Shown here: piece after piece, positions 9,997 to 23,161 of the stretch
How positions within the stretch are numbered: the stretch's first letter is position 1
How the letters are laid out: the number at the start of each line of letters is the position of its first letter
Source of the DNA: a virus
Direction: 5' to 3' (one strand)
IMG/VR virus record: IMGVR_UViG_3300030103_000589
Coordinates: 1,991-25,151 of that record
Length of the DNA stretch: 23,161 nucleotides
Position numbers and translations under genes: made by a program
The notes under the pieces: generated by a model
Seen by the model: only the letters and a program-made list of their open reading frames with translations
What the model was told of the DNA's origin: nothing
The model's database searches: none

Positions 9997-10442
9997 TAGC
10001 TTATTATTATATAATCATCGCTAGGATAACTTGTTGTTTGTGTATATTCTCCGTTATTAATATCGTAATAACTGTTTTCAGATTGGTCAATTGTTTGGTC
10101 CGTACAAAATATTTTATCTAAATATATAGTTGTTTCTGTAGATGTAACTGATTCCCAATTATCTGTTGCTGCTTCCCACTGTGTAGTAAATGTATCCCAA
10201 TTTGCTCCTAGACCTTTTATAATAGTTAAATCATAAAACCTACCCTCTACTAATGGAGCGCTTGATACTGTAAAAGCAGTAGTTATAGATGCCTTATCGT
10301 TACTTTTTGTTAGTGTTAAGCTGTTTATTGAATTACTGGCATTAGTGCTTGTATCCCTAAGCGTCATTTTTACGCTACTTGGGTATTCTCTTGGTATAAA
10401 CGTAAGTGTTTGGTTACCTGCACTGGTTGTCAATATCTTCAT
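9996..10442 (-). CDS. small structural protein of unknown role, 148 aa
   Basis: I do not recognise a named family with certainty. The 148-residue protein looks beta-rich, with alternating Thr/Ser and hydrophobic residues. It has a FIPREYPSSVKMTLRD segment near residue 15, a GRFYDLTIIKG segment near 67, two Trp repeats (NWDTFTTQWEAATDNWESV) and a Tyr-rich acidic tail. The FYDLTI and TIYLDKIFCT phrases are like those of short head or neck proteins placed next to portals in Bacteroidetes phages. It is the first gene after a terminator, has the TATTATATA element three bases before the ATG, and its stop overlaps the portal start. Head-associated or head-tail joining protein is the best guess. Confidence 0.6.
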   Translation of the reverse strand: MKILTTSAGNQTLTFIPREYPSSVKMTLRDTSTNASNSINSLTLTKSNDKASITTAFTVSSAPLVEGRFYDLTIIKGLGANWDTFTTQWEAATDNWESVTSTETTIYLDKIFCTDQTIDQSENSYYDINNGEYTQTTSYPSDDYIIIS

Positions 10443-20450: not shown

Positions 20451-21457
20451 TACCTAATATTGCTAATCATATCAAACGCATATTCAGCTGTTAGTGTATA
20501 TTGTATTGTTTTATCATTAACACCTGTTTTAATTCTAGTTGCTGTATTAGTTATGTTTATTGGTGTTGTTTGACTATCTTTATATATCCATACTTGCTCA
20601 CTTACTAATAACTGTTTAAATGCTTCGTTAACATTGTCGTAACTCATTTGCGGTGAATTAAGTATTAATGTTTCATTTGCTAATGCGTTAAATTGTTTTA
20701 TGCTATGCTTTTGGTTACTGTACCTAGAATTACTATCTATAATGCTACGCTTAAATGTAGTTTTTTCTACGTTAATATTTTCTGTTGTTTTACCTGTAAA
20801 ATATAAATCTTGCAACGCACCATATTTATTTACAAATGTAACTTTATATGCTTCGTGCTTTGTACATACCCTTTCAATATCAAACGTTGTACTTAAAACA
20901 GTTTCACTTGTATCACCTGCGGCAAATGCTTGATATACTATTGTACTTGCACTTTCATCATAGTAAGGTATTACACCTGCTGTGTTATCAGGTGCATATA
21001 TTGTAGTGTTGTCTTGTAACACTGTGTCCTGTGTTGTTGATAATGTTAATGCGCTGTTTTGCCCTGTACCTAACCCTTCTGTAAATTCAAAGTAACCATC
21101 TAAACCTGTGTGTGTTATTGATACAGCGTTACCTACTGTTGTTGCAGTAGCACCTGTGTTTATTTCATCTACTGTTTTATTTTTAAATGTAAGCGTACCT
21201 GTAATTGCTATTACTTGGCTAGTATAAGTATTGTTAAATGTAATGTCAAGATAGTCTCTACATAAATCAGCTATCTCAAATGCCACTGTACCTGTTTCTT
21301 GATTAGTTGTTCCACTTAACGTTGTATCCTTGCTCATTTCGCTTATTTGTGTTCCGCCTACTGATAATGTCAACGTAGCACTTTTTGCAACGTTAGGGCT
21401 AACGTATGGCTGACTGTGTGATTCATAATATGGACTTCTTAATAATATATTTGCCAT
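20450..21457 (-). CDS. tail protein of unknown exact role, 335 aa
   Basis: 335 aa, starting MANILLRSPYYESHSQPYVS. The N-terminal 120 residues are beta-rich, including FEIADLCRDYLDITFNN near residues 60-76. The C-terminal part has DIERVCTKHEAYKVTFVNKY followed by GALQDLYFTGKT near residues 195-226, and SEQVWIYKDSQ near the end. I know the LLRSP start and the YKVTFVNKYGALQDL phrase from tail proteins of Bacteroidetes phages, always beside the large 'LFKDE' baseplate protein, as here. A distal tail or baseplate role fits, but no enzyme signature is present. It is coupled to both neighbours by TAATG overlaps, so the three are probably made in fixed proportion. Confidence 0.65.
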   Translation of the reverse strand: MANILLRSPYYESHSQPYVSPNVAKSATLTLSVGGTQISEMSKDTTLSGTTNQETGTVAFEIADLCRDYLDITFNNTYTSQVIAITGTLTFKNKTVDEINTGATATTVGNAVSITHTGLDGYFEFTEGLGTGQNSALTLSTTQDTVLQDNTTIYAPDNTAGVIPYYDESASTIVYQAFAAGDTSETVLSTTFDIERVCTKHEAYKVTFVNKYGALQDLYFTGKTTENINVEKTTFKRSIIDSNSRYSNQKHSIKQFNALANETLILNSPQMSYDNVNEAFKQLLVSEQVWIYKDSQTTPINITNTATRIKTGVNDKTIQYTLTAEYAFDMISNIR

Positions 21458-22035
21458 TAGTTACCTCTTTTAATTATACCTGCTTCTATTAAACTATCAA
21501 TCATTAGTATTACCATATCATCTGCGAAAATGTCCTGTAATTCATTTGGTAGTTTTTTAAACTCATTAACAAATGGTATAGTAAAAAAGTTGTTAGCCCT
21601 TATACCTTTTTCAAATATTGACCTTGCTATTACATAACCTATGGCATTATAATTGCCTTTTTTAAATTTACCCTTTGCATCTCTAAACCTTATATTTCTA
21701 TTCTTTGCCCAGTTACCTATTAAATTAGATGGTGGTGGTTTAGTGGTGTATTTAAACGGTGTATTTTTATTTACACGGTAGTTGCTTTTTGTACCTTTAA
21801 CACCGCTGTCGATGTAATCACCGTAATCTTCCATAAATAAACCATAGGCAAGTATATCACCAGTTTCCACTAAACGTTTATAATTTATACTATTGTATAG
21901 TCTTTTTGTATTATTTATAGGTCGCTTCTTCCTTTGCGTTTTTGTACCCTTACTTAAATTTTGTTTAGCTTGTTTCTTTACAGCTTTAAAAAAATCTTCT
22001 AACCTTGCATTAAACCTATCTGAAAATATTAACAT
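21457..22035 (-). CDS. HK97 gp10-like tail completion protein
   Basis: 192 aa, basic. Landmarks: NNTKRLYNSINYKRL near residues 42-56, YGLFMEDYGDYIDSGVKGTK near 64-83, FKYTTKPPPSNLIGNWAKN, then GYVIARSIFEKGIRANNFFT near 133-152. The pattern L..S....... YG..ID.GV.GT ... I..W ... I.R.I...GI....F is that of HK97 gp10-like proteins, which join or complete the tail at the neck. It follows a terminator-like protein, the usual neighbour. Its ATG overlaps the end of that gene by seven bases. Assigned from motif order and context. Confidence 0.75.
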   Translation of the reverse strand: MLIFSDRFNARLEDFFKAVKKQAKQNLSKGTKTQRKKRPINNTKRLYNSINYKRLVETGDILAYGLFMEDYGDYIDSGVKGTKSNYRVNKNTPFKYTTKPPPSNLIGNWAKNRNIRFRDAKGKFKKGNYNAIGYVIARSIFEKGIRANNFFTIPFVNEFKKLPNELQDIFADDMVILMIDSLIEAGIIKRGN

Positions 22036-22502
22036 ATGTATTGGTCGTTTCTTACTTCTATATTTATATCTGCACTCCAGCCTGCTAAATTGTTTTCAAA
22101 CCTATCTACAAACGGCTCACACACTGGGTCATTTATAACCCTGTAACCTGTTGTATGTAAATCACCAAACCTTAGTTTTTGTACTAATAAATTTAATACG
22201 CCTAACTGTGTATTTAATATATCTTGCTGGTCTGTGTTACCCCTAAACCTATCAGTTTCTTCTGACTTGCTTGTGTCAACAATATCCATTGCCATTACTG
22301 TAATACTATACACTAACGTTTGTTCTGTTGTAGTTACATTGTTAACTATAAAGTGTGCTAGGGGAAATATAGATTGTTTACCTAAGTCTACATCAGATAC
22401 ATCTCCTATTGTTACTGTTTTAGTTATATTGTTGTTTAGTAATGAACTTTCTAGCGCTTCGCTTAGTAAGTAATATGATCTAATTGCTACGTTTCCTGGC
22501 AT
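22029..22502 (-). CDS. tail terminator-like protein
   Basis: 157 aa. It starts MPGNVAIRSYYLLSEALESS, a helical start as in small tail terminator/neck proteins. The middle has FPLAHFIVNNVTTTEQTLVY and MAMDIVDTSKSEETDRFRGN near residues 45-105. Then come DILNTQLGVLNLLVQKLRFGDL and a CEPFVDRFENNLAGWSADIN stretch before the C-terminus. The order of an alpha helix, a beta sheet with DIVD, then a helix and a final strand pair matches proteins that cap the tail in other phages. Followed by a gp10-like gene, which supports a neck role. Its start lies 23 bases inside the end of the predicted frameshift ORF. TATTATATA also occurs 42 bases upstream, but within coding sequence. Confidence 0.6.
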   Translation of the reverse strand: MPGNVAIRSYYLLSEALESSLLNNNITKTVTIGDVSDVDLGKQSIFPLAHFIVNNVTTTEQTLVYSITVMAMDIVDTSKSEETDRFRGNTDQQDILNTQLGVLNLLVQKLRFGDLHTTGYRVINDPVCEPFVDRFENNLAGWSADINIEVRNDQYIC

Positions 22503-22749
22503 TTGCTTTTAATTCTGCTTGTTCTACTTCGTTCTTTTCTTTCATATATAATAATATATTCAAAGATTTTAATAATCTTTCTTTAGTGATATTTTCGAAT
22601 TCTGTAATACGTCCTTGAGCGAGTTCGTAAATTGCTGAATACCACCCCCATCGTTTAGAAAACTGTGCTGACCTTCCGTGAGGTTGTTCAGTTGTTCCTC
22701 CGTCAAATAATCCATCATATTGCTTGACAACTCGATCCCTAAATTGTAA
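22480..22749 (-). CDS. frameshift extension of the tail chaperone (-1 frame, GT-like)
   Basis: In the -1 frame relative to the chaperone gene there are 89 open codons from the slippage site to TAG at 22482..22480. The translation contains QFSKRWGWYSAIYELAQGRI (about residues 29-48 of the extension), then TEFENITKERLLKSLNILLY and MKEKNEVEQAELKANARKRS. The WGWY.AIY.LA.G..T.F pattern followed by two helices is what I know from the second part of tail assembly chaperones in Bacteroidetes phages. No ATG, GTG or initiation-competent TTG precedes the WGWY motif in this frame after its last upstream stop (TAG at 22767..22765). It must therefore be reached from the other frame. The single in-frame ATG (22545) would give only 21 residues. 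The product would be a fusion of 212 aa counted from ATG 23117. Confidence 0.78.
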   Translation of the reverse strand, partial: LQFRDRVVKQYDGLFDGGTTEQPHGRSAQFSKRWGWYSAIYELAQGRITEFENITKERLLKSLNILLYMKEKNEVEQAELKANARKRSN

Positions 22750-23161
22750 AAAAAAACCACTGCACTAAAACAAACATCTAACGGCATATCTTTCAGTACA
22801 TCTGTTTCTTTAGCTTCATACTCTTCTATATTATATTTATCTCTGTATGCTTCTGATACAGGTCTGTACAGTACACTCATAGCTTTATGCATATCATCCC
22901 AGGATTGCATATAGTTTTCTATGTCTACATATTCACCTAATGATATATCTTCTAATACAGGTATAAATCCGTATGCTACATTATTTAATTCAAATCTGTT
23001 TATTAGTTTTGGCTTTATCTCTAATAAATCGTTAAGTATTTTTATGATCTCATTCATATCTTTTATCTTGATCTTGAATGTATCTTTTAGATCTATGCCA
23101 CAAAATATCTCTATCATTTTTTGTGCTATGAATGTACCATCGCCATTGTCTTTCTGTATCT
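22569..23161 (-). CDS. tail assembly chaperone (G-like), 5' end beyond window
   Basis: An ATG at 23117 gives 182 aa, but the frame is open to the right edge and the 14 codons before it (IQKDNGDGTFIAQK) look like protein, with no ribosome binding site before the ATG. I therefore treat the gene as partial at its 5' end. Landmarks counted from ATG 23117: NNVAYGFIPVLEDISLGEYV near residues 46-65, DMHKAMSVLYRPVSEAYRDK near 75-94, MPLDVCFSAVVFFYNLGIEL near 112-131, then DGGGIQQFTNSLKDVLQ near the C-terminus. The order yGfIP...gEy.D......h.amsvLyRP..... is that of tail assembly chaperones in Bacteroidetes phages. These proteins bind the tape measure until the tube grows. From the poly-U tract on, the DNA also codes in the -1 frame. 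Confidence 0.75.
   Translation of the reverse strand, partial: IQKDNGDGTFIAQKMIEIFCGIDLKDTFKIKIKDMNEIIKILNDLLEIKPKLINRFELNNVAYGFIPVLEDISLGEYVDIENYMQSWDDMHKAMSVLYRPVSEAYRDKYNIEEYEAKETDVLKDMPLDVCFSAVVFFYNLGIELSSNMMDYLTEEQLNNLTEGQHSFLNDGGGIQQFTNSLKDVLQNSKISLKKDY
22749..22755 (-). promoter_or_regulatory. -1 ribosomal slippage site, U_UUU_UUU
   Basis: In the chaperone frame the codons are GTT TTT TTT TAC, a run of nine T (22756..22748), which contains a perfect X_XXY_YYZ heptamer. It lies ten bases after the last stop in the -1 frame and 264 bases before the TAG that ends it. Slippage here joins the N-terminal domain to the WGWY extension. I did not find a clear downstream stem-loop by eye. Confidence 0.65.

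Follow-up and report, generated by a model that had tools for sequence, protein, structure and literature searches.

The locus studied here raises the question of whether a run of nine T residues near the end of a viral contig allows one gene to give two proteins, and whether the bases that follow the run are held in two reading frames at once. The window, that is, the whole stretch of 23,161 nt that was analysed (positions 1,991 to 25,151 of IMG/VR record IMGVR_UViG_3300030103_000589), ends where the 25,151-base record ends, and the gene is truncated at that point. A sequence-only reading of the window had proposed a programmed -1 frameshift producing a short and a long tail chaperone of the phage lambda G/GT type, with about 180 bases coding in two frames. 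As judged from its relatives, the gene carries a programmed -1 frameshift that is conserved widely and is followed by a long stretch coding in two frames, and the short and long forms that it would make are probably a tail-assembly chaperone set.

Reading frames and slip site

Through the T9 run (22756-22748, minus strand), the 0 frame reads GTT TTT TTT TAC. The features around it are as follows:

22749..22755, minus strand: slippery heptamer T_TTT_TTT, inside the T9 run 22748-22756, in phase and kept in relatives
22572..23159, minus strand: 0-frame (short-form) coding sequence, limited by the contig; from the ORF listing, with a match to phrog_32199 (E 4e-14) and to the N-terminus of relatives
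22569..22571, minus strand: 0-frame stop TAA, end of the short form, read from the sequence
22483..22749, minus strand: -1-frame extension of the long form, 89 codons, LQFRDR...WGWYSAIYELAQG...KANARKRSN, conserved in all relatives analysed
22480..22482, minus strand: -1-frame stop TAG, end of the long form, read from the sequence
22572..22748, minus strand: stretch coding in both frames, 177 nt or 59 0-frame codons, marked by stop avoidance and by codon identity and shifted-frame similarity above controls

On re-reading the sequence, the T run, both stops and the open span of the -1 frame were found where the sequence-only reading had placed them. A TAG at 22767-22765 bounds the -1 frame, which then stays open from 22764 to the TAG at 22482-22480. 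As had been claimed, no usable start precedes its WGWY motif in the window: ATG, GTG and TTG are all absent from the frame up to that point, and its earliest start codon, a TTG, lies 29 codons past the motif. The short form likewise runs 59 codons past the slip site, as proposed, before reaching the TAA at 22571-22569. The 5' end of the gene had to be corrected. The ATG at 23117, taken at first as the start, is internal, because no stop interrupts the 0 frame before the contig end and relatives start ~38 codons upstream of the residue that matches this ATG, which places the true start off the contig. The frame there reads IQKDNGDGTFIAQK (23117-23161 side, minus strand), which matches the full N-terminus of relatives; in complete members this begins MK-x-x-I-x-V/I-P-T-x-L...E-I-x-L-x-Q-Y-Q-K-F. 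Just before the start codon of several relatives (L075, L086, L087, L090, L099 and others), a recurrent ACGTTTATA-like motif was observed, which is possibly a promoter or initiation element.

Conservation of the frame relation

When both frames were aligned with homologues, the segment carrying WGWY stood in the -1 frame throughout. Among the matches listed, the -1 relation between the two parts was found in 314 of 314 two-part loci, 266 of them distinct, an earlier round having given 227 of 227; with the conserved heptamer at the junction, this result upholds the proposal of a programmed -1 frameshift. The 314 loci come from IMG/VR, the P12024 records and one Bacteroidetes MAG, each broad scan of IMG/VR giving at least 600 rows. 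Since some loci share a contig, the distinct counts (266, 195, 181 and 64) are the better figures.

A conserved T run ahead of the -1 frame had also been predicted, and this held for most of the family. Of the 266 distinct loci, 253 have T9 and 11 have T10 as their longest run (264/266); of the two that remain, one is without the slip region (L195) and the other without a T run (L306). The latter belongs to the clade L317-L332, whose in-phase site at the corresponding point is A_AAT_TTT. In this sister clade of 16 loci the -1 relation is also present, and although members are down to ~53% identical and the residue preceding the heptamer varies between V, I and A, the heptamer itself is invariant. 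Runs are mostly T7 in the distant branch described below, and the element common to all branches is an in-phase X_XXY_YYZ heptamer. Within 64 representatives of less than 85% nucleotide identity to one another, both Phe codons are always TTT and the preceding codon always ends in T. Codon usage alone predicts these slip-site codons at ~10^-41, assuming independence of sequences that are not fully independent. The +1 frame is closed after two codons in 179 of 181 loci, which we read as a by-product of two coding frames.

These alignments also bear on the idea of two separate genes, with the -1 frame started internally or by re-initiation. Such an arrangement is suggested by the annotation of the Nonlabens phages P12024L and P12024S, in which an ATG overlapping the 0-frame stop could give the extension its own start. 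However, the -1 frame is already conserved from the slip site onward, before any start codon occurs, and ATG is absent before WGWY in 61 of the 64 representatives, as are all three start codons in the window. As an account of this gene, two separate genes are most improbable, and a frame change at the heptamer is the reading followed below.

A few loci depart from the common pattern. In L195, the slip region and surrounding residues are gone and both flanks are open in the -1 relation, as after a deletion or misassembly. In L340 (2930-3300), a base is apparently missing upstream of the run, which is T10; this reflects two errors in the sequence or else a frame change at a shifted point. Both anomalies are possibly assembly errors. 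In L241 (3460-3500), the run sits one codon position away from its usual place (GGT TTT TTT TTG) but is still T9. A search for relatives fused in frame, using the junction only, gave T10 loci and the odd locus L340. Some single proteins in BFVD, including A0A516L5A8 (260 aa) and A0A6J5N0W0 (267 aa), match the models of both the short form and the extension, and uncultured phages may thus include in-frame fusions.

A distant branch in bacterial genomes

A distant version of the gene was found in 6 of 395 genomes of a Bacteroidota phylum sample and, within one bacterial family (phylum of G001), in 63 of the 301 genomes sampled. By hhalign it is related to the phage family with an E value of 3e-8, both parts being aligned through the slip point into the extension. 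All 29 resolved loci of this branch show the -1 relation with the site CAT TTT TTT; T7 predominates among the runs, beside a few of T8 and a single T9, the two frames overlap by 60-138 nt, and the short form extends 20-46 codons past the slip site. The distant loci in G364, G100, G215, G262, G380 and others (L348-L387) lie in apparent prophages or elements derived from phages. The same gene layout, together with a tape measure and a head protease, was found in one bacterial genome, in a region resembling a prophage. A homologous extension in L353 (genome G119) lies in one continuous frame of 199 aa, behind an unrelated N-terminal part and with no frameshift.

Proposed mechanism of the frame change

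In the mechanism that we propose, one start would serve two proteins. Most ribosomes would read through U_UUU_UUU and complete a short form of ~220 residues (182 visible and ~38 off the contig), and a minority would shift one base backwards on the heptamer, where both tRNA-Phe would pair anew, and so make a long form whose last 89 residues would carry a helical domain with the conserved motif F-x-x-[RK]-W-G-W-Y. Since the short form would also need its 0-frame residues past the slip site, the same bases would be selected in two frames. We infer both the occurrence of slippage and its efficiency. In E. coli, U_UUU_UUU slips at >0.10% without stimulators and is thus a working but weak site (PMC4066793). 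No signal of an RNA stimulator was detected over 45 representatives, the mean z being ~0 around the slip site in modelling of pseudoknot-free structures; the A_AAT_TTT clade gave no consistent structure, and Rfam gave no match on 22400-23161. A downstream stimulatory RNA structure is common in programmed -1 frameshifts but not obligatory, and with none detected the predicted efficiency is low or host-dependent.

The lack of a detected stimulator would also suit transcriptional slippage, in which the polymerase adds a U in the T9 run and normal translation then gives the long form. The mxiE gene offers a U-run precedent for transcriptional slippage. T9 or T10 is nearly invariant in the main phage group, and elsewhere in these phages long runs are scarce. 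In ORFs of at least 120 aa over all loci, A/T runs of at least nine occur 4- to 10-fold less often than in shuffles of the codons (T>=9, 9 in other ORFs vs. 34 in shuffles; A>=9, 10 vs. 106), and A7 and T7 are depleted in every phase, T7 in all three. Nine A/T residues is the length at which selection against slippage becomes evident in many bacteria (PMC1088944). The T9 sequences alone could not separate ribosomal from transcriptional slippage. Against the latter, however, a whole clade carries A_AAT_TTT, which is not a homopolymer, and the distant branch is mostly T7, leaving the in-phase heptamer as the sole common element. Because the A_AAT_TTT clade and the T7 branch share the heptamer and not a long homopolymer, comparison of the branches favours ribosomal -1 slippage; the two branches largely exclude transcriptional slippage, which we consider distinctly unlikely. 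With T7, T8, T9, T10 and A_AAT_TTT, the family provides a natural slip-site series for bacteria that have hardly been studied for frameshifting.

Selection on two frames in the overlap

The overlap of the two frames has a median of 177 nt in 181 loci and ranges from 49 to 264 nt across phages (49 nt in the P12024-type clade), with the short form extending 16-88 codons past the slip site; in the group with the 264-nt overlap, the 0 frame ends 8 nt before the end of the -1 frame. With the -1 protein and the local codon usage taken as given, a 0 frame open as far as the observed stop has a probability of 0.002 (median of the 181 loci), and stop avoidance spans 165-264 nt in most of them. The synonymous constraint that coding in two frames should leave was also found. 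In pairs that are 40-50% identical, codon identity at identical residues was 0.593 in the overlap vs. 0.436 expected, and 0.475 vs. 0.469 expected in the N-region of the same pairs, synonymous sites being saturated. Shifted-frame similarity had a z value of 2.90 in the overlap, compared with 0.11 for the N-region and 0.36 for the tail. The 0-frame similarity in the overlap exceeds the level forced by the -1 protein, with a related result when stops were excluded.

Purifying selection, as read from these comparisons, is acting on both frames in the overlap and is unevenly spread. The claim that ~180 bases are constrained in both frames thus held overall but not evenly: constraint peaks at codons 1-20 and 41-50 after the slip site, and codons 21-30 are near the control level. 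The first peak could in part be a cis signal. It can accordingly be argued that the 0-frame tail past the slip site is nonfunctional and that it is conserved only on account of the -1 protein or of a cis signal close to the slip site. The unevenness of the constraint, strongest in the first 20 codons, would fit such an explanation, as would the low confidence of the last ~39 short-form residues in fold prediction (pLDDT <50) and the tail of just 16-25 residues in P12024-type phages. This is nevertheless unlikely, given a 0-frame similarity beyond what the -1 protein forces, controls near zero and stop avoidance over such lengths in most of the loci. Selection on both frames is therefore retained as our reading of the overlap. 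We put at about even the chance of the fuller proposition that both C-termini are selected, that the short form has a conserved C-terminal segment of its own in bases which also encode the recruiting domain of the long form, that the isoforms swap C-termini rather than add one, and that the bare heptamer slips without a stimulator.

Protein identity and gene neighbourhood

The short form belongs to phrog_32199 and the extension matches phrog_38404 in P12024-like members, both being function-unknown PHROG families that now gain a handle. Searches of Pfam and PHROGs with both parts gave no chaperone match and no informative Pfam match, and the PDB gave nothing significant by sequence or by fold. 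Folds were predicted for the two parts separately. The predicted short form has a mixed alpha/beta N-domain and, where the slip would occur, a long helix, its tail being of uncertain structure, and the predicted extension is all-helical. Among the structural matches, unnamed relatives rank highest; of those with a name, the tail assembly chaperone of Arthrobacter phage Kitkat comes first but is weak (E 0.068), and a further weak match is the tape-measure chaperone of Caulobacter phage Seuss (E 0.29). Flavobacterium phage 6H (fold match E 0.047) was rejected, having no simple -1 extension; its record (L228) has an unannotated gap at 10047-10352, after a gene of 191 aa, with coding-looking sequence in other frames.

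In relatives the gene order is terminase, frameshift gene, then tail-like genes. Two genes follow the frameshift gene in the window:

22029..22502, minus strand: next gene, 157 aa, phrog_30964, its ATG overlapping the last 23 nt of the -1 frame
21457..22035, minus strand: gene of 192 aa, phrog_29822, at the same place in the P12024 phages

Because of this overlap at the ATG (22502), translational coupling of the long form and the next gene is possible; ribosomes making the long form would terminate (22480-22502) just past that ATG. The 192 aa gene is probably HK97-gp10-like. Further along, the window holds a gene of 590 aa with tape-measure and structural matches, then a protease, a possible capsid protein and a portal. 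The frameshift gene thus lies at the head of a tail module, after terminase, with the tape-measure candidate several genes downstream. The lambda-style position between the major tail protein and the tape measure was not found at the frameshift locus; such a position is typical of G/GT genes without strictly defining them.

The layout of terminase followed by tail genes, seen also in the prophage-like region, supports a role in tail assembly. The analogy with lambda G/GT and P2 E/E+E' makes a tail-assembly chaperone set, its two forms produced in a fixed ratio, the most likely identity of the pair; the tape measure would then be bound by the N-domain that both forms share, and the tail-tube protein recruited by the extension. 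We infer the term 'tail chaperone' from architecture, synteny and weak fold matches. Of the G/GT assignment made at the outset, the architecture and the tail module stood, whereas a family match was not found, the folds matched weakly and the gene proved to follow terminase; it would work like G/GT. A real frameshift could also provide proteins for head-tail joining, packaging or tail termination instead of tape-measure chaperoning. The place of the gene, immediately behind terminase and with several genes between it and the tape-measure candidate, would agree with one of these roles, as would the lack of a sequence match to known chaperone families, but the downstream module is like that of a tail, conserved -1 frameshifting at a low level within a tail operon is a usual mark of tail chaperones, and the weak fold matches are to chaperones. 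We therefore consider these other assembly roles possible but less likely, and keep the chaperone reading, under which G/GT-type frameshifting would be extended to a very common, functionally unannotated group of Bacteroidota phages and prophages.

Comparison with known systems

The gene resembles lambda G/GT and its HK97-type relatives in encoding, as predicted, a short form and a -1 long form with a common N-part, from an in-phase heptamer in the tail region of long-tailed phages. It differs in having no detectable sequence relation to G/GT, in lying after terminase whereas lambda's pair lies before the tape measure, and in a short form that continues 59 codons past the slip, where lambda's ends near it. 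The site is T_TTT_TTT or A_AAT_TTT here and G_GGA_AAG in lambda. To our knowledge, the overlap is among the longest conserved two-frame stretches for a tail gene. With Shigella mxiE and Thermus dnaX, which use transcriptional slippage, the T9 members share a homopolymer of nine, but relatives here keep the frame change without a run of nine. Like P2 E/E+E', the gene combines a T-run slip site with a -1 extension of a tail gene; P2 and P2-like phages (e.g., Smp131) have T-run sites of T6G, T7G and T7C (PMC3931495). The P2 E' frame reaches just 37 nt back into E (PMC3931495), in contrast to an overlap of 177 nt here (49-264 nt across phages).

The sole isolate-phage homologues in the phage collection are those of P12024L (gp40/gp41) and P12024S (gp38/gp39), each a pair of phrog_32199 and phrog_38404. 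They differ in an overlap of 75 nt, are ~27% identical, and are annotated as two hypothetical proteins, which agrees with the earlier expectation that standard ORF calling would miss the long form, as gene callers will continue to do. They are nonetheless true homologues, in which the T9 run, the -1 frame and the same order directly after terminase have been kept.
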